This document shows positions 2,577-10,392 of a stretch of 64,000 bases of DNA, piece after piece. Position 1 is the stretch's first letter, and each line of letters opens with the position of its first letter. This DNA comes from Gammaproteobacteria bacterium (GTDB taxonomy: Bacteria > Pseudomonadota > Gammaproteobacteria > Pseudomonadales > IMCC2047): NCBI GenBank assembly GCA_021773395.1, contig JAJFKB010000002.1, positions 124,001 to 188,000 on the forward strand, written 5' to 3'. The position numbers and the translations under genes were made by a program. A model generated the notes under the pieces. It worked only from the letters and a program-made list of their open reading frames with translations. It had not been told where the DNA came from and ran no database searches.

Positions 2577-2742
2577 GGCACTGCTGCTCCCGTGAGTTGT
2601 TACGGGGCAGTGTGCGAGAATCAGAGACGGAGGACGATGGAAAATCTATTCAGTGGGCGGGGTGGTTTTTGAATTAAAGTCCTTCAGAATTTCTGTAGAT
2701 TCGGACTAAGCTGTTCGGCATTTTTAGTTGAGATTAAACCAT

Positions 2743-4671
2743 TCAGAACTCGCACAATGCTCTAAGTGCAGCATCTGCCCTAGAGCATGAAACCCATAGC
2801 TCGGGAGTCGAATGTAGTAATGCCGTCAGACGAGAACAAAAATCTTCAGCCTCATTTTTTTCCATTTGAGAAGAAGCTAGTTCAGTCAGCCATTGACCTG
2901 CGAAATCTCTCCAGTCAATGAGATCTTGGTGAGAAGAGGACGCAACGAGGCACACTCTCATAGCCTCTTCGATTGAAAATTTATATTGGGGATCGCGAAG
3001 ATAACGTCGCACGAGAATACGCAGCTCATCAGCCAGCGCCGGACTGCGAGAAGCAGCTGCAACAGTGGCTAGACCATTAAGTATGCCGACTAACTGAGAT
3101 TTGTCTTCCAGTTTAGAGAGCGTGTAGTTACCTAATCGAAGTGCTTTGGCCGCCAAATCCGCGTGACCGGATGTAATCTTAAAAATTATCGCAGAATTTA
3201 CGAGCGCAATAAATGAGGATGCATCAACGTCATCCGTGTTTAGCTGTTCATCTATAGCGCGCGCCAATTCTTCAGGTAATGGATTGGGACTCTCTTCAGA
3301 CCCTTCAAGAGGTCCCGGAAAATACGGACGAAAAAACGAGGACAATTTGGCGAGGCTTTGCTCGCCGTTACCCAAGATTGTTTCACGCAACTCCCCATCT
3401 CCCATATTCCCGAAATAATTATTTCCTGCAATCATTAAACGACCGAAGAAGTCTTCTTTTATCTGTGACGCATCGACAAGATCGGGATTCCAGCGTGGTT
3501 CAGTGCGCATATCCGCAAGAGACTGCATATAGTAGTGCTCAAACCGAGCGCTAAACGCCCACTCATAAAAACTTTTGTACTCAATACCGGACTGAACAAT
3601 TAAACGATGCATCAAAGCAGCGTGCGCCAGCGAGGCCAGCCTCCTGTAAAAAGGCGGAGTGTCAGACATCAAACGCGTTCTGGATAGCTCACCATCAACG
3701 AGAACAAATAATGCTGAGAAAAGCTTGAAGTCGGATTGCTCGCCCGCCAGATTATCGTCGCGAATTCGATGTACCAATTGCAGAAGGAACGGCTCTACCT
3801 CGGGTCTCTGTGGAAGTATTCTCAATCCAACTTCAAATGCCCCAAGTCGAGAAAGCATGTCTCCATGCGCCTCTACAAATTCAAATGCTCTTATAAGATC
3901 ATCGTTGCCCAAATGATCAATGCATATTTCAGCCGTCAAAGTGGAGTGAGACGCAAGAAACAAACTGAAGAGGAACCCTTCATAAGGCTGCCACTCCGAT
4001 AGGCTATTCAAAAATGCCTGCCCTGAACCAGCAGCATATTCCTTGCTAGAAGCACACCCGTCATAGGTGCCAACCAATCTACTATAGTAATCGCGCGAGC
4101 TAGGAACGAGGGACGATATGGTGCTCTGACCCGCATCGATCTCACTACGGATAGCCCGCTTCACATGTACGGGCGTGTTACAAATATCTCTGTGGAACGT
4201 ATCTATTTCGTCATCTTCGAGTGCGCGTTCTGTAAGTACCTCGATCCAACGTTCTTTCGCGTCAATAGGAAGATTCACATCAACTGCCGCCTGCTCCAGA
4301 GACCGGATGCGCATGTCGACTTCGCCGGAAAGCACGGCAAAATCGGGCAACATCAGACGTTCACCATTTGCGTTCAGGGCAAGAACGGGAAGTGCCCCCT
4401 CTTCGGCCTCATTTGTGAGCTGCCAGGCTCGATCTGCTTCGTCTACGATTTCTGCGTTTTCAGCACCTGCCAGAACGGAGCGAACGGCGTCGAAGAGTAC
4501 AGTCTGTTGGATGGCCACTCCACTTATTCCCAACGATATTACTGCTTCTGTTTTGAAGCCGAATTCTTCATTAAAAGAGGTCTCATCAAGCAATGTTCGG
4601 CGTATGAGCGGGGGAACATATTCCATTGCGGCTTGCGCAAGCGCTGCTCTGGCGAATAGAGAGTTTGTCAT
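2743..4671 (-). CDS. Unknown 642-residue protein, third gene of the motif-sharing cargo operon
   Basis: 642 residues of no family I recognise. It looks largely alpha-helical, with many Leu/Ala-rich helices and short loops suggesting a repeat-type fold in the C-terminal half (for example around residues 480-630). No signal peptide, membrane segment, nucleotide-binding loop or nuclease motif is apparent. The ATG overlaps the stop of the 1267-residue gene by 4 bases (ATGA), so the two are translationally coupled and probably act together, perhaps as a subunit or regulator. Base composition is clearly lower in GC than the ICE backbone, indicating separate acquisition. It is the last gene of the run. 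A 166-base gap then leads to RAQPRD. Confidence 0.85.
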   Translation of the reverse strand: MTNSLFARAALAQAAMEYVPPLIRRTLLDETSFNEEFGFKTEAVISLGISGVAIQQTVLFDAVRSVLAGAENAEIVDEADRAWQLTNEAEEGALPVLALNANGERLMLPDFAVLSGEVDMRIRSLEQAAVDVNLPIDAKERWIEVLTERALEDDEIDTFHRDICNTPVHVKRAIRSEIDAGQSTISSLVPSSRDYYSRLVGTYDGCASSKEYAAGSGQAFLNSLSEWQPYEGFLFSLFLASHSTLTAEICIDHLGNDDLIRAFEFVEAHGDMLSRLGAFEVGLRILPQRPEVEPFLLQLVHRIRDDNLAGEQSDFKLFSALFVLVDGELSRTRLMSDTPPFYRRLASLAHAALMHRLIVQSGIEYKSFYEWAFSARFEHYYMQSLADMRTEPRWNPDLVDASQIKEDFFGRLMIAGNNYFGNMGDGELRETILGNGEQSLAKLSSFFRPYFPGPLEGSEESPNPLPEELARAIDEQLNTDDVDASSFIALVNSAIIFKITSGHADLAAKALRLGNYTLSKLEDKSQLVGILNGLATVAAASRSPALADELRILVRRYLRDPQYKFSIEEAMRVCLVASSSHQDLIDWRDFAGQWLTELASSQMEKNEAEDFCSRLTALLHSTPELWVSCSRADAALRALCEF

Positions 4672-7600
4672 GCATCAGCCTCTTGGGATACATCGGTCTC
4701 TGCCAGTCGGCGTACCTGATCTCTATGCCAATTAACCAACCATTCGTACAGATCGGGAAACTGTTCCTTTACAGGGGAAAGAATTCTGTCTTCAACCCAG
4801 GTCCAATATGCATCAACAATCGAAGCTTCGACTTCAAGTGGTGGACTCAGAAGAAGGAGCATGTGTCCGCCACGACCTATGCGAACGACTTCGTCTGCAT
4901 GCTCCGGAATAAGACTATGTGCCCACCCGCGAACATCGACTTGATCCGAAAGCCAGTTGGAGCGTGCGATCACTTCGTCCAAGTTTGCTCTATCCTTCCA
5001 GAGGTCTCTCAAAACCTTGCCGAATGTCTTCAACGTCAAATCGAGCCATGGCGCTTCATTGGGAAGTTGAAGCCAGTCGCTCATTCTTACCCTCAGGACT
5101 GATTCACGGATTGCTTTCAGTTCAGCTGTTTCTATGACTTTACCGTCAACAACAGGTGAAGCGTTTATACATTGCTCCAGTTCATCTGCGTTGACCGGAA
5201 CAAAGAAATATCCCGCGCGCCTGAGTTTAGTTCGATGCTCCAGCAGGTCATCAGAAGAAATGATCGAAGCCGCGGCCAAGGAGTCTAGAAGGTCCAAGGT
5301 TGAAAGAAGCGGCGCCATTGTGCCGCCAAAATCTATATTCGTATGCTGGTTAATGAATCTGTCATCTACCACTGCGATTTCGCAATCGGGAGCCAAGGCT
5401 ATAATACCTAAAGTAGGATGTTCGGGTATTGGGTCATCACTTTCCATGTCAAACTTGCGCCTGCCACCGACCTTTACCTGCCCAGTTTCTATACGATGGT
5501 TCAATGTCGTTCGCATCCGTTCGATGACATTTTTCACCTCGTCAGAAATACGGTCGTAAGTGATAAGAGCATCCACTTCGGAAACCTCCCTCGGAGAGGA
5601 GACCGCCCTCAAGCCAGCATCTCTTAGCTTCCCAAGCAATCCAAGATGCAGCAGATAACTGATAGCCAAATCATCAAGATAAAGAACCGCACTATCCGCG
5701 ATCTCAGGCTGGTTGGGCCATGGTCTTTCTTTTAGTTGTAAATAAGCACGAGCCCGCTTTTCTTCGCTCCCTGTAATCTGCCCTTTCTGTTTGAGCGTTT
5801 CGACCACAGCAAGACAACTGCTCAACACGGGGTCATGTGCAGAAAGATCAGCTTCTTCCTCCAACAAACTGGAAAGTCGATGAACCGGTGCGGAACGCAC
5901 TACGATATGCTGGGTATTATCGCCCTCTCGTACCATCTCAGCTTCGGCAATAAGCGCTGCCAGTTCGTCTCCAACCTGAGTTGAGAGTTCACTATCGGCG
6001 ACGGTGCCTGGGACAAACCGTTCAAGCTTACCCGTTGCCAGCAAGTCACGTATCTGACGGGCATCAGCTACACGGCTGGGTTGATGGAAGGCGGCCTTCT
6101 GCCGCTCATTAAAAAGCCATCCCAGAGTTGAGTGAGGGATGAGCACTGTTCCGAACGTGTCCAGTGCGGTATCGAGCATATTCAGAAAACTAAGGGTCAG
6201 CAACGCACTAGCATCAAGAGCGACCGCTCGCCCTATGAGATCGATCTGTTGTGACGTACGCTTGCCACTATACGCTGGAATTGCGTTCCTTCGCCTAGGA
6301 TCAGCTTCAGTTAGGTTAGCTAGTGCAGGAAAAGTCGTAAGGTCAGTAAGCGTACGGTGGAGTGATTGCGCGGCCATAAATATCGGTATTTTGCCCTGCG
6401 CAAGCATTTGCCACGTATCCGATTCACGGCGATCCCAATCCGGCTTTCTGTCAAGAATATCCTTAAAACTCATACTTTGGAGCGGGCCGTCATCACCAGA
6501 TAGCTCCGCCGCCTGTTCTAACCATTGGAAAACTCCAGGATCACCTTCCCAGCCCGCGTTTGTTGACATGAAATATGCGGCGGCCAGTATAGCGGGGTCC
6601 CCTTCGGCCTTAGATGCGACTTCAAACACGAGGTCTTTCGCATGCGCTGAACCGATATGGAGAGCGAGTTGTGCTGCTCCTATAAGATCATGCACAGTTC
6701 GTTCTTTTCTATTCTGGTATTCGTTAACGATGTAAGCAGAAAGAGAGTTCCAATCTCCCATACTGATATAGAGATTAACTTGAAGCGCACGATAGTTGGG
6801 GGAATCTGCTTGATTAGTCAGTTCGGTCAACTTTAGGCGCGCTTCAAGAAATGCGCCTTCGTTGTATAAAGCCCAAGCGAAGGACATTTGTAGATGTTCA
6901 GATTGCTCAAGCAGGTCTGTATTAGATTGTATGAATTCGACGAGAGTCTTGGATTTGTGCGTGTTGTTTAATGAGTGCACTAGGCGTTCAGCGTCTTTGA
7001 GTGCCCGTGTTTGTTCAAATAACTTTTTACCGTATTCGGATAGGGCATCCCAGTTATGATGCTCTTCAAGTTCAGCAACAAGGTTTATCAGATCTACTAA
7101 TTCACCGGTAGATTCGTATTGTGCTTCACGAGATTCTACCGGATCACTTCCATGAGCCTCAGAGACAATACGTCGAAGGTTCTTTTCCTCGTCGTCAGAG
7201 ATACCCTCTTTAACAAGATGGTCAAGCACCGCATTAGCTCTGTCAATCAGGCTTGCCTGAGAATAAAGCTCGACCTGCCGAAAGCATATAAGCTTGGGGT
7301 CAACATGAGTAGCAAGCTGCTCCTGGTGTCTGACGATGTAGTTTGCGGCCTCTTCTGCGGTTGGTTTAGCGAATGCAAGAGCGAATCGAGCAACTGCCGC
7401 TTCTATTGTCATGCCACCATTGATGGCTATATTTCGGTCAATTTCTCTCTCAACCACATCATGGTCCAACTCGATGCCGAAACGGATAGCGTAATGAACG
7501 AATCCTAGGGCAGCACTAAGGTCACGGAGTTTGCCTTCCAGCCTTGTCTTTCCGTATGTAATCAGTTCCGGATCACGCAGTTCTAGCCATAGCGCAAATT

Positions 7601-8471
7601 CATCATCAATTTTCTCAGCTCGAAAGCATTTCAGGTCTTTAGCTGCTTCCGCAGCCTTAATGAAGCGATCGCGCGCAGATCGACGAGACTCCATCGAATT
7701 AGCATCAGAAGCAAGAGGAAAGCTATTCACCTCAAAAGGAACTTGTGTCAAAACGACACTTCTGAAATCCAGTGGTACGGTAGAAACCAACGTTGCTAAC
7801 GCAGACAAATGATGTAGGACAGGAGTAAGTTCAAAATCTGTATCGGCAAGTATACCAACAGCCTCCGCAGCCTTATCCCAGGAGCCAAGCTGTAGTTTTT
7901 GGGTGATTAGAAAACTCTTACCGTCAGAATCCAAGCTATCGATACCGTATCCCGCATCGTCCATCCACTTGAGCGCTCCATCGGCACCATCATGATGAGA
8001 AACGATCATCAAAGCAGTCGATCGCGAAGCGGCCAAGTCTAAACCGGAGAGGCCCTGAAGCGCTAAAGCCTTGTCTCCTTTTTGAGAAAGCACGAAAGCT
8101 TCAGCAATCTTGATCTCGGTACTATCTCCAAGATTCTTCGCCCGCTCCAAACACTCTTCCGCCTTATCGAGATGATCGGAACGAGTAAGCAGCCGCGCAC
8201 ACCACGCCAGCCCGAAACTCCTTACTTGATCCGAGCCTCCAGACAGGTCACCATCTACAAGTCGGTTACAAAGCTTCAAGGACGTGCCGATATGGTCAAA
8301 CTCAGTGAAGAAACGCCTTTTGCGAATTAGTTCAACCAGCTCCATGATTTTCTCATCAACGAGTTCTGTCGAAACATTCCCTTTTAGGATAATGTTGACG
8401 TCTCCACCTGCGATAACGTTTGTAGAGTTATCACCTGCGGAAATAGTCTGATTATCCTTGTTCCATATCAC
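4668..8471 (-). CDS. Large helical-repeat (TPR-like) protein with PIN-like segments and N-terminal amyloid-type motif
   Basis: 1267 residues, GTG start overlapping the previous stop (GTGA). Residues 7-27 form a Gly/Asn/Thr-rich motif (NQTISAGDNSTNVIAGGDVN, then I) almost repeated in the adjacent small membrane protein. Residues about 40-720 are helix pairs with TPR-like spacing (for example AEECLERAKNLGD, RANAVLDHLVKEG). Two later segments look like PIN nuclease starts: 750-785 (ALDASALLTL, Asp753) and 927-945 (VLYLDDLAISYLL). A C-terminal PIN-like patch follows at 1030-1090 (IAVVDDRF, Asp1036/1037, then a Leu-rich helix and LRRAGY). The likely role is a sensor whose C-terminus cuts RNA, with the N-terminal motif recruiting the membrane partner. 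This is inference; the PIN call rests on motif appearance only. No NTPase domain is visible, unlike NLR-type receptors. Confidence 0.85.
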   Translation of the reverse strand: MIWNKDNQTISAGDNSTNVIAGGDVNIILKGNVSTELVDEKIMELVELIRKRRFFTEFDHIGTSLKLCNRLVDGDLSGGSDQVRSFGLAWCARLLTRSDHLDKAEECLERAKNLGDSTEIKIAEAFVLSQKGDKALALQGLSGLDLAASRSTALMIVSHHDGADGALKWMDDAGYGIDSLDSDGKSFLITQKLQLGSWDKAAEAVGILADTDFELTPVLHHLSALATLVSTVPLDFRSVVLTQVPFEVNSFPLASDANSMESRRSARDRFIKAAEAAKDLKCFRAEKIDDEFALWLELRDPELITYGKTRLEGKLRDLSAALGFVHYAIRFGIELDHDVVEREIDRNIAINGGMTIEAAVARFALAFAKPTAEEAANYIVRHQEQLATHVDPKLICFRQVELYSQASLIDRANAVLDHLVKEGISDDEEKNLRRIVSEAHGSDPVESREAQYESTGELVDLINLVAELEEHHNWDALSEYGKKLFEQTRALKDAERLVHSLNNTHKSKTLVEFIQSNTDLLEQSEHLQMSFAWALYNEGAFLEARLKLTELTNQADSPNYRALQVNLYISMGDWNSLSAYIVNEYQNRKERTVHDLIGAAQLALHIGSAHAKDLVFEVASKAEGDPAILAAAYFMSTNAGWEGDPGVFQWLEQAAELSGDDGPLQSMSFKDILDRKPDWDRRESDTWQMLAQGKIPIFMAAQSLHRTLTDLTTFPALANLTEADPRRRNAIPAYSGKRTSQQIDLIGRAVALDASALLTLSFLNMLDTALDTFGTVLIPHSTLGWLFNERQKAAFHQPSRVADARQIRDLLATGKLERFVPGTVADSELSTQVGDELAALIAEAEMVREGDNTQHIVVRSAPVHRLSSLLEEEADLSAHDPVLSSCLAVVETLKQKGQITGSEEKRARAYLQLKERPWPNQPEIADSAVLYLDDLAISYLLHLGLLGKLRDAGLRAVSSPREVSEVDALITYDRISDEVKNVIERMRTTLNHRIETGQVKVGGRRKFDMESDDPIPEHPTLGIIALAPDCEIAVVDDRFINQHTNIDFGGTMAPLLSTLDLLDSLAAASIISSDDLLEHRTKLRRAGYFFVPVNADELEQCINASPVVDGKVIETAELKAIRESVLRVRMSDWLQLPNEAPWLDLTLKTFGKVLRDLWKDRANLDEVIARSNWLSDQVDVRGWAHSLIPEHADEVVRIGRGGHMLLLLSPPLEVEASIVDAYWTWVEDRILSPVKEQFPDLYEWLVNWHRDQVRRLAETDVSQEADA

Positions 8472-8677
8472 TTTTTCTTGACTCGCTTATCAATGTTGAT
8501 ATGAACATCTCTACCAGACTGGACATTAGTTGACCCTTCGCCTGCCAGGATAGTTTGATTCGATTCTGTCTGTCTTTTCTTAAAAAATATTCGACAGATT
8601 CCAGCGATGAAGACTACCCCAGCACCTGAGAACAACCACTCTTTGTTATCTGTTAAAAAGGTTACGATCTCGTCCAA
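8468..8677 (-). CDS. Small membrane protein with C-terminal amyloid-type motif (putative effector)
   Basis: 69 residues, TTG start preceded by a strong AAGGAG seven bases upstream that lies on the stop of the exonuclease gene. One membrane helix covers about residues 14-32 (LFSGAGVVFIAGICRIFF), followed by a basic stretch. Residues 40-60 form the motif NQTILAGEGSTNVQSGRDVH plus I, matching residues 7-27 of the next protein at 14 of 21 positions. The tail is basic (DKRVKKK). A membrane domain with a C-terminal motif, next to a large repeat protein with the same motif at its N-terminus, is the layout of bacterial amyloid-signalling effector/receptor pairs. A membrane-disrupting role when nucleated is inferred, not shown. 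Confidence 0.85.
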   Translation of the reverse strand: MDEIVTFLTDNKEWLFSGAGVVFIAGICRIFFKKRQTESNQTILAGEGSTNVQSGRDVHINIDKRVKKK

Positions 8678-8689
8678 TTTAGCTCTCCT

Positions 8690-9289
8690 TTAATACTCCT
8701 CATTGCCCATCCCATTTATAGCTTCAATGACTTGTGCAGTTTGCAAGCAATCATTCGCAGCTCCATGTACTCCATCGTTATCCGCTCTAACATTTTCAAC
8801 ATGAAGCGCTTCTGTCAAAGCATCTAACGACGGGCCTCGTTGGCTGCATGGCAAATTCATTGCCTGCGCCCAGGGGATCGCCGCTTTCTGACTGCAAAAC
8901 ACACCTTGAATTGGCGGCATTGATAAACCGTAGCGGGCAACGTGATCCAGCAGGGTCGGCCAGTCAAAACTGGCGTTGTGGATGACGATAAGCTGATCTT
9001 TCAGGTATTCGGCAATCTGGTGCCACTGGGAATCAAAGGAATCAAATTCTGCAGCCTGTTCGTTGGTAATGCCATGTATCGACTGCGCTTCTTCTGAAAT
9101 GTGTTTTTGTGGCCGTGTTTTAAATTCGACGGATTCCGTTATCTCTCTTTTTCTCACCACGGTGATGCCAAGTGTCACGATATCCGGCGGGCCGTTTTCG
9201 TCAGGGAGTCCGGTAGTTTCTGTATCGAGGACGATGTAATCGTCCGGGAGTTGAGTAAAGATCCACAGCAGCTCATTCCACTTAGACAT
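8690..9289 (-). CDS. DEDDh-family 3'-5' exonuclease
   Basis: 199 residues, the size of a stand-alone DnaQ-like exonuclease domain. The family's metal-binding motifs are all present: Exo I at 21-25 (LDTET, Asp22 and Glu24), Exo II at 103-109 (IHNASFD, Asp109) and Exo III at 175-180 (HGAAND, His175 and Asp180). The activity on single-stranded DNA or RNA ends is therefore probably intact. It starts 12 bases after the RES gene, and its stop codon overlaps the ribosome binding site of the small membrane protein, placing it inside the cargo operon. Its GC content is intermediate between the RES/Xre pair and the low-GC genes to the left. Whether it serves the defence module or is a passenger is unknown. 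Confidence 0.85.
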   Translation of the reverse strand: MSKWNELLWIFTQLPDDYIVLDTETTGLPDENGPPDIVTLGITVVRKREITESVEFKTRPQKHISEEAQSIHGITNEQAAEFDSFDSQWHQIAEYLKDQLIVIHNASFDWPTLLDHVARYGLSMPPIQGVFCSQKAAIPWAQAMNLPCSQRGPSLDALTEALHVENVRADNDGVHGAANDCLQTAQVIEAINGMGNEEY

Positions 9290-9301
9290 AGTACATTGCC
9301 C

Positions 9302-9994
9302 TCACTTCCTGCCACTGCCATCAAGGGATTCAACGTCAACGATTATTCCTTGGTCATAGTGGTAGCGCAGATAACGCCAGTGGATCGCATCGGACAGCGC
9401 TCGGGCACGCATTACCCCGTAACACTCCCCTTGCGCTCTCACGCTTTGGTAGTGAACGCCGTAACTTTTGGCATCACGTAACGCGTAACCGAGCTGCTGG
9501 GCTTCGCCGTAATTCTCGGGATCGTAGATGGCGTCTTCGGCCAGGTGACTTACATCGTGAAGGGTTGTCGGGCCCAGCTGTGCGCGAATCACGCGCATTT
9601 CCTGGGTGGTCTTGTCGATTCTGGACTCACGCAGGAAGCGCGCCCGGTGGTAGGACGATTCGGCGATGGCGACCGCTTCATCGGCAGCGCAGTAATAGAT
9701 GCCGAAGTCCCGGTTGAAGCGACCACCTCGGCCATCGACAGGCGGGTGGGTAAAGGCCGCCATGATCCAGGAGGCACCATCGCCATAAACCCTGTCTTCC
9801 GGCGGCACCAGACGAATATCACCGACTTCATCCCTTAACCTGGGATTCGTCAGGGACTCGACAGCGTAGAGCACATCCCAATCCTGTGGGTTGGAGACGC
9901 GCTCGAACAGGTGGATCTGCGGGTAGCGCGACAGGATGACCCGATAGACCGGTTCATTGACCTCGCTACTGGGTAGCGTATCGATAGCGATCAC
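9302..9994 (-). CDS. RES-domain toxin (NAD+-degrading family)
   Basis: 230 residues with the RES-domain features: VYRV at 17-20, GRGGRFNRD at 88-96 (Arg92), GIYYCAADEAVAIAES at 98-113 with Glu112 and Ser113, and a further conserved half towards the C-terminus. Characterised RES toxins (MbcT, PP_2434-type) cleave or phosphorolyse NAD+. The gene starts with GTG overlapping the antitoxin stop (GTGA), the normal order for these type II modules. An expected function is growth arrest when the antitoxin is lost, stabilising the ICE or acting as a phage-triggered abortive system. Confidence 0.9.
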   Translation of the reverse strand: MIAIDTLPSSEVNEPVYRVILSRYPQIHLFERVSNPQDWDVLYAVESLTNPRLRDEVGDIRLVPPEDRVYGDGASWIMAAFTHPPVDGRGGRFNRDFGIYYCAADEAVAIAESSYHRARFLRESRIDKTTQEMRVIRAQLGPTTLHDVSHLAEDAIYDPENYGEAQQLGYALRDAKSYGVHYQSVRAQGECYGVMRARALSDAIHWRYLRYHYDQGIIVDVESLDGSGRK

Positions 9995-10392
9995 CAGCTA
10001 CCCCGCTCCGCATCGAGAAAATCCCTAACCACCGCCAAGTCGACCACCTGACCAGCGAGTATCCGGTCCAGCGGCGCCGTGCCATTGAACAGCGGGTTGT
10101 CGTTGGGAGTAGCCATCCACTGGTCAGCCAGCACCTGATCAGGCAACAGGATTTGCAAGGACTTGTAGATCCCCAAAATGTAGCTGGTCCGTTCCAACAG
10201 GTCTCGCGTCAGCTTGGCCTTCTCGGGTTGACTCTTCCAGTTATAGAGAGTCTTCTCATTACTGAGCCCCAGTAGCGTCATCTGCTGGGCACCAGTGAGG
10301 CGCCACTGGCTGAAGATATTGAAAATCGCCGGCAGCAGTGAACGGGTGACACTGGAACCACGTTGCAGCAGTTGTTCGGCTTGAGCGATCAT
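9991..10392 (-). CDS. Xre/MbcA/ParS-type antitoxin
   Basis: 133 residues. The N-terminal half is an Xre-like helical DNA-binding region (LTGAQQMTLLGLSNEKTLYNWKSQP, about residues 32-58). The C-terminal half is the toxin-binding domain (DUF2384-type) with WMATPNDNPLFNGTAPLDRI and a terminal RDFLDAERGSW. This is the partner of the RES toxin, which follows with a 4-base overlap. Such antitoxins repress their own promoter; two matching palindromes lie just upstream at 10417-10432 and 10452-10469. Confidence 0.9.
   Translation of the reverse strand: MIAQAEQLLQRGSSVTRSLLPAIFNIFSQWRLTGAQQMTLLGLSNEKTLYNWKSQPEKAKLTRDLLERTSYILGIYKSLQILLPDQVLADQWMATPNDNPLFNGTAPLDRILAGQVVDLAVVRDFLDAERGSW

Follow-up and report, generated by a model that had tools for sequence, protein, structure and literature searches.

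Bacterial signalling amyloids have been described mainly in filamentous actinobacteria and cyanobacteria, and a review asks whether they also exist in NLR-independent pathways (PMC7889193, 2021, accessible part). In the known pairs, the bacterial amyloid signalling sequence (BASS) and Bell-NLR systems, adjacent or overlapping genes encode a small effector with a membrane helix and a C-terminal motif, and a receptor carrying the motif at its N-terminus (PMC7889193, PMC8086366, accessible parts). A second described system, TPR-GreA/B-C-PIN, is predicted to target RNA polymerase complexes engaged in transcription of viral DNA and, failing that, to release an N-terminal effector; the N-terminal slot of its proteins holds either such an effector or EAD10, and in the accessible part of the paper its members are mostly standalone genes (Kaur et al., 2021, PMC8195603). 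Here, we have analyzed a stretch of 64,000 nucleotides from a Gammaproteobacteria bacterium (assembly GCA_021773395.1, contig JAJFKB010000002.1, positions 124,001 to 188,000; hereafter, the window), in which two overlapping genes encode a 69-residue membrane protein and a 1267-residue TPR-double-PIN protein sharing a motif of about 20 residues. On balance, comparison of the sequences inclines us to regard the pair as a two-gene effector-sensor module, in which a homotypic, amyloid-like motif resembling RHIM would join a one-helix membrane effector to its sensor. The features of the pair are as follows.

8468..8677, minus strand: 69-residue single-pass membrane protein (proposed effector), TTG start, with a short N-terminus, a helix, a basic stretch and the C-terminal motif
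8582..8638, minus strand: transmembrane helix predicted at about residues 14-32, with K/R residues after it (limits read from hydropathy)
8498..8560, minus strand: effector-side motif, residues 40-60, NQTILAGEGSTNVQSGRDVHI, 14/21 identical to the receptor motif
4668..8471, minus strand: 1267-residue TPR-double-PIN protein (proposed sensor/nuclease), GTG start, with the N-terminal motif and Pfam PF24407 and PF20698
8391..8453, minus strand: receptor-side motif, residues 7-27, NQTISAGDNSTNVIAGGDVNI, matched by the motif-only profile

An earlier note on this DNA had reported a match at 14 of 21 positions between residues 40-60 of the small protein and residues 7-27 of the large one, and this was reproduced. 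Among all ungapped 21-mer matches of one protein to the other it ranks first, and 2000 shuffles of the 69-residue protein against the whole 1267-residue protein gave a maximum of 9/21 (reached by 30 of them), by which chance similarity was ruled out. The overlap of the two open reading frames (ORFs) by 4 bases, both on the minus strand, was confirmed from their coordinates, and the likeness to BASS pairs that the note had seen in the layout (effector motif C-terminal, receptor motif N-terminal, genes overlapping) was borne out. When a motif-only profile, built with the window small-protein motif and without the window receptor motif, was run on the host genome, it recovered the effector copy (E 6e-10) and the receptor copy (E 6e-8), and no third copy could be found at E ≤0.05.

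To characterize the pairing more broadly, the 69-residue protein was aligned with 39 relatives and genome contigs were scanned for the small protein, keeping 80 loci out of 89 related stretches. The membrane pattern was carried by 79 of the 80 loci and the motif pattern of the scan by five, and therefore the loci were selected by their membrane stretch. The protein had at most 80 residues in 41 loci and was longer in 39; called with its own profile at ≥10 bits, the motif was present in 32 of the 41 short proteins versus three of the 39 longer ones (Fisher p=6e-11). A profile made from small-protein motifs only was run on all ORFs of the scanned loci. Among 1493 other ORFs (≥100 residues), 29 scored at least 7 bits, and 28 of these lay immediately downstream of a small protein with the motif and were matched near the ORF start. 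The remaining match lay elsewhere and was internal (7.1 bits); with 1/1493 elsewhere, the idea that the motif is an ordinary feature of nearby ORFs was rejected. Four further loci (L033, L037, L042 and L067; L and G numbers denote our loci and genomes) had the motif in the adjacent gene by eye, this gene lying upstream in L067. Homologues without paired motifs, which the earlier note had named as evidence against its proposal, were looked for, and the pairing held: a gene starting with the motif adjoins every one of the 32 motif-bearing small proteins (28 by profile, four by eye).

These 32 loci, the window, L004, L013, L016 and four loci with a second motif type make up the 40 pairs considered below (G1274 stands outside them). 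The pair was found in loci of at least six phyla, taxa being as annotated. L013 (G593) and L016 (G424) were among the 10 of 369 genomes of the class matched by a first profile search at E 0.01. A motif-only search covering the host's class (210 genomes) and that of G967 (220 genomes) gave matches over at least 16 of 24 motif positions exclusively as adjacent pairs, in G000, G424, G967 and G1274; the effector motifs of the first three were rows of the profile and the G1274 pair was new, and four other matches covered 11-13 positions. Coupling of the membrane protein to its partner via the motif is well supported.

The conserved motif is short, homotypic and rich in Gly, Asn, Ser and Gln, and its partners are exchanged between loci. 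Among the 40 pairs, the partner is an LPO_1073 protein in 28, a TPR-double-PIN protein in seven, a STAND/NACHT-type protein in two, a TPR protein in one (L077) and unassigned in two (L004 and L057, the latter without a library scan). All 28 tested partners matched LPO_1073/Vpar_1526 (NF045477), which makes this family the most frequent partner of small membrane proteins with the motif; the bodies of these proteins are 16-41% identical to the first one. In a census of 369 genomes from the host's class, one (G424) had the family. No function described for it was found among the literature matches listed, the one match for Vpar_1526 being an outer-membrane proteome study. One of the two STAND/NACHT-type partners (L041) has a visible P-loop and a NACHT match (E 1.2e-4) below the cut-off, and the other (L067) was assigned by a P-loop read by eye; because both are joined through the same motif, they tie the module to the NLR paradigm. 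Four Bacillota pairs (L066, L079, L082 and L084) carry the second type of motif on both sides: in the small protein, QIGxQNNYY stands a few residues before the C-terminus, and the LPO_1073 partner begins with QIVEQNNYY, QIAQQNNYY, QILEQNNYY or QIANQTNYY. Local duplication, with a copy of the motif passed from one gene to its neighbour and then drifting without function, is made mechanically easy by overlapping genes, but it is highly improbable given that the pair persists over at least six phyla and with unrelated partners, that the LPO_1073 bodies share only 16-41% identity with the first one, and that the second type is matched.

We also compared motif similarity within pairs (cis) and between pairs (trans) by a permutation test on the 36 type-1 pairs, the four hand-anchored type-2 pairs being left out (20,000 permutations, floor p=5e-5). 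Identity was 8.89 of 20 positions in cis versus 7.44 in trans (p=5e-5; BLOSUM62 p=5e-5), and within the 24 LPO pairs it was 8.83 versus 7.82 (p=5e-5; BLOSUM62 p=6e-4).

With regard to the working of the pair, we infer homotypic stacking rather than simple tethering. The sensor would be the TPR-double-PIN protein, working with a 642-residue GreAB-C-like partner, and, in line with the proposal of Kaur et al. for this system, it would probably be triggered by a transcription complex that an invader has modified. A triggered sensor might cluster and thereby expose its N-terminal motifs, which would stack with the motifs of the membrane proteins in an amyloid-like, RHIM-resembling manner. Such stacking would gather many membrane helices and lead to membrane damage, so that growth would stop before a phage or plasmid spreads. 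Templated amyloid-like assembly appears the likeliest mode of coupling, since the same motif stands on both sides and, at the clade level, the two sides change together.

A number of observations weigh against this reading. The seven TPR-PIN pairs had no cis excess (p=0.41), and when the cis motif was compared with that of the nearest relative it was better in 14, equal in five and worse in nine of 28 cases (p=0.20). Fine-scale co-variation is accordingly not supported, and the cis effect therefore lies between clades and not pair by pair. On a tree of 27 of the 28 LPO_1073 partners (L042, a fragment at a contig end, was left out), the type-2 label needs two changes, and the type-2 motif may nevertheless have had a single origin. 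Nine small proteins lack the type-1 motif: four of these are type 2, two are cut short, L073 through a deletion and L070 because its contig stops there, and in the last three (L038, whose neighbour is an NTPase, L096 and L099) no clear paired motif is seen. In addition, three viral-contig scans returned no relative, the small protein had no match in phage records, and no PADLOC model matched the 1267-residue protein at E ≤1. Natural fusions, which count in favour of the module, also occur: the membrane module is fused in L028 (Fibrobacter) to a body 43% identical to the motif partner of L034 and 34% identical to that of G1274, and in L064 (Paenibacillus) to a body 38% identical to the motif partner of L057. 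Such fusions are equally expected under plain tethering.

Such tethering would be constitutive: simple beta pairing of the two motifs would keep the TPR-PIN protein on the inner membrane to sense DNA or RNA as it enters, and the small protein would be an anchor and not a killer, with no amyloid formed. The L028 and L064 fusions fit an anchor equally well, and so do motif-free fusions of the membrane module to receiver-like proteins and to proteins annotated as helix-turn-helix regulators, which look like the work of a general anchor. The module, marked by NKEWLFSG, is fused without motif to a receiver-like domain in nine loci (L039, L043, L050, L059, L068, L085, L090, L098 and L102) and to the regulator-annotated type in L011, with L080 and L081 similar by eye; because the module is fused there without the motif, a general anchor role is favoured in those cases. 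For the paired genes, tethering is possible but doubtful: the partners carry the same motif and not complementary ones, the type changes in both, and a lock-and-key fit needs no identity. The Gly/Asn/Ser/Gln-rich composition of the motif and a RHIM tetrad in 17 of 40 effectors also argue against a mere anchor and for the amyloid-like stacking favoured here.

The 69-residue protein has one hydrophobic stretch (maximum 19-residue Kyte-Doolittle value 1.87), and the net charge of the C-terminal flank exceeds that of the N-terminal flank in all 40 small proteins, which, under the positive-inside rule, should place the motif on the cytosolic side. The membrane helix itself is different in L016. PDC-M43A, a phage-defence candidate of PADLOC, matches residues 6-62 of the window protein (E 7.7e-7) and shares its N-terminal membrane module; unlike the window protein, the full-length PDC-M43A match L085 runs into a receiver-like domain and has no motif. 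The motif-free, receiver-fused module may be regarded as a candidate membrane signalling or defence family. On a Shewanella plasmid (L012, 2968-4666), the membrane module stands ahead of a gene for an ATP-binding protein. The small membrane gene of an Azospirillum plasmid (L004, 4992-5159) is absent from the incomplete gene table of its record, and such small genes may for this reason be widely missed.

Comparison of the motif with known signalling motifs brought further points against an amyloid-like reading. We take [VI]Q[VILC]G to be the RHIM tetrad pattern; it was present in the 17 effectors mentioned and one of 40 receptors, and absent from 23 effectors (that of the window included) and 39 receptors. 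No amyloid-motif family, whether RHIM, HET-s, sigma or PP, was among 25 of the 29 Pfam families matched by the 40 effectors at E ≤1, and membership of Pfam RHIM is not supported. The earlier note had suggested a comparison with BASS families; one printed BASS3 peptide was scored, and 40/500 and 21/500 shuffles scored as high, which is not significant and leaves membership of BASS3 unsupported. For a second printed peptide (Methanothrix), 61/500 shuffles scored as high with the receptor profile, and there was no match with the effector profile. Thus, the pairs resemble BASS pairs in their adjacent or overlapping genes, in the placing of the motif at the C-terminus of a small membrane-helix effector and the N-terminus of a receptor, and in a RHIM-like tetrad in part of the set; they differ in that the receptors are mostly not NLRs (STAND/NACHT-type in 2/40 pairs), the effector has about 60 residues and a single helix, the hosts are largely not filamentous and the motif has no significant match to the one BASS3 peptide printed in the accessible parts (PMC7889193, PMC8086366). 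The word RHIM occurs in neither of the two eLife texts of Kaur et al., and the name Dyrka does not occur in the 2021 one.

EAD10 (PF19954) is an alpha+beta domain (Kaur et al., 2020, PMC7159879, accessible part), and the motif could instead be its reduced beta half, giving a homotypic but not necessarily amyloid coupling of effector and core. In this very system, EAD10 is the archetypal domain at the N-terminus (PMC8195603, accessible part); it has in common with the motif the receptor system, the principle of adjacent-gene pairing and a similar ...NI..G.D.HI... stretch. Pfam EAD10 matched four of 40 effectors at E ≤1 over about 27 positions (17.2 bits for the best, E 0.0052), and the three of these that were inspected (L024, L036 and L058) were matched within the motif; hhalign of the motif against EAD10 gave P 0.0015 over EAD10 columns 41-60, and with the EAD10 profile 22 of 40 effectors exceeded the 99th percentile of shuffled scores. 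However, all Pfam matches fell below the cut-off of 24.1, the hhalign probability was 16%, one of 40 receptors scored with the EAD10 profile, and motif profiles run in the reverse direction, on 10 EAD10 sequences, scored weakly. It should also be noted that EAD10 has 77 positions with a helical half, whereas the motif has about 20 residues and the helical half is missing. Membership of EAD10 was accordingly judged weak, a further point to be counted against the amyloid-like reading, and a reduced EAD10 is rather unlikely, kept as a rival; the link between motif and EAD10 is a lead. EAD10 matches form clusters, three to six matches within 8-18 kb, in genomes of G966's phylum: G1058 (L115, L122, L126 and L129-L131), G1009 (L117, L123 and L127) and G1027 (L118, L125 and L128), where one of the three matches is below the cut-off.

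The proposed sensor belongs to a described system, as judged from the following domains of the large protein and its downstream neighbour.

6258..6467, minus strand: HTH_upstream_double_PIN domain (HTH_upst_double_PIN, PF24407), E 7.5e-25, 87.5 and 92 bits in two scans (cut-off 27)
5337..5681, minus strand: second PIN domain (PIN-TPR-GreABC, PF20698), E 4.9e-9, 37 bits (cut-off 27.8)
2743..4671, minus strand: 642-residue partner with Permuted_GreAB-C at residues 52-97, 27.0 bits, equal to the cut-off of 27; overlaps the large gene by 4 bases

Because the first two domains are above their cut-offs and the Permuted_GreAB-C partner is at its cut-off, the 1267-residue protein was placed in the TPR-GreA/B-C-PIN conflict system. 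The PIN-like segments and the lack of an obvious NTPase that the earlier note had described hold up in Pfam (no NTPase by Pfam), and for its TPR-like repeats there is a weak TPR_14 match below the cut-off (PF13428, E 0.21). The new receptor arrangement that it had proposed is not wholly new, the protein being a member of this system (PMC8195603). As in the accessible part of that paper, a helix-turn-helix domain stands upstream of a double PIN, PIN-TPR-GreABC is present, the partner is a probable Permuted GreAB-C protein, and the N-terminal slot seems to take an exchangeable effector or coupling domain. On the other hand, the slot in the window consists of the motif of about 20 residues alone; a one-helix membrane protein bearing this motif, encoded by its own gene, would serve as effector, and yet another gene encodes the GreAB-C-like part, unlike the mostly standalone genes described before.

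Relatives with 51-72% identity to the 1267-residue protein were found in L024, L027, L025, L135 (G593), L026 and L037. The family is rare, with two of 245 genomes of the order and four of 398 of the phylum, the host being counted. Three acidic residues of the second PIN domain (D933, D1036 and D1037; D274, D377 and D378 in alignment numbering) are invariant in seven homologues, so that nuclease activity may well reside in this domain; L037 has Glu in place of the leading Asp of the first PIN domain. No relatives of the PIN half could be found by sequence among solved structures, and no close copies of window positions 2600-9400 in E. coli. The N-termini of relatives vary by eye: alpha/beta-hydrolase-like on an Agrobacterium plasmid (L002), hydrophobic helices on a Methylophaga plasmid (L003), restriction-endonuclease-like on a Gloeocapsopsis plasmid (L005) and nucleoside-phosphorylase-like in L133. 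The TPR-double-PIN protein and the 642-residue partner are one 1907-residue protein in L025 (6203-11923), where Permuted_GreAB-C scores 14.4 bits. A match of the 642-residue protein to protein A among solved structures (E 0.013) was taken as chance.

Upstream of the module, on the same strand and with gaps of at most 12 bases, lies an Xre-RES-exonuclease arrangement (window 8690-10392).

8690..9289, minus strand: DEDDh (DnaQ-like) exonuclease, accessory, 12 bases upstream of the membrane protein (RNase_T E 6e-20; PADLOC DEDDh E 8e-27)
9302..9994, minus strand: RES-domain toxin (PF08808), 12 bases upstream of the exonuclease
9991..10392, minus strand: Xre/MbcA/ParS-type antitoxin (library match)

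The exonuclease gene also precedes remnants of the module in L010/L136 and in L073, and it had no match in the stretches examined of L024-L027, L037 and L135. Genome G180 (L136, 2820-4542) has the Xre-RES-exonuclease order, with Xre and RES read by eye, followed by nothing but a 67-residue remnant of the PIN protein, and L073 (5384-5995) has kept the exonuclease together with a shortened membrane protein and the extreme C-terminus of the 642-residue protein. A costly module would be expected to decay in this manner, with the exonuclease kept and the module lost. In the window, the module is cargo between conjugation genes of an integrative element, with TIGR03747 and TraD on one side and RAQPRD, TIGR03745, TIGR03750 and TIGR03746 on the other. 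We infer a role in defence because of the receptor family and this cargo position. Beyond the element (window 37705-62378), ten ORFs were scanned; one had no Pfam match, and nine were ordinary-looking chromosomal genes (malate synthase, glutamate synthase large/small-like, RibBA-like, lytic transglycosylase, acetyl-/acyltransferase, sugar transferase and UDP-sugar dehydrogenase).

Such pairing was not described in any of the literature matches listed, a search that covered titles and the start of abstracts and had most subscription journals outside its range. The recurrent pairing with unrelated partners suggests a widespread wiring of a membrane effector to danger sensors. In a broader view that we put forward tentatively and with less assurance than the module itself, one small effector family, present in at least six phyla, would be wired by a widespread amyloid-like motif, mostly in the absence of NLRs, to several unrelated sensors (TPR-double-PIN, LPO_1073/Vpar_1526 and STAND/NACHT-type) with matched switches of type, and EAD10 and the RHIM-like BASS motifs would be variants of it. 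The pairs, which occur mostly in other bacteria than those known for signalling amyloids and mostly with non-NLR sensors, make the question of NLR-independent bacterial signalling amyloids directly testable (PMC7889193, accessible part). They also provide a candidate function for the uncharacterised LPO_1073/Vpar_1526 family, and would mean that a TPR-GreA/B-C-PIN system can receive its effector in trans.

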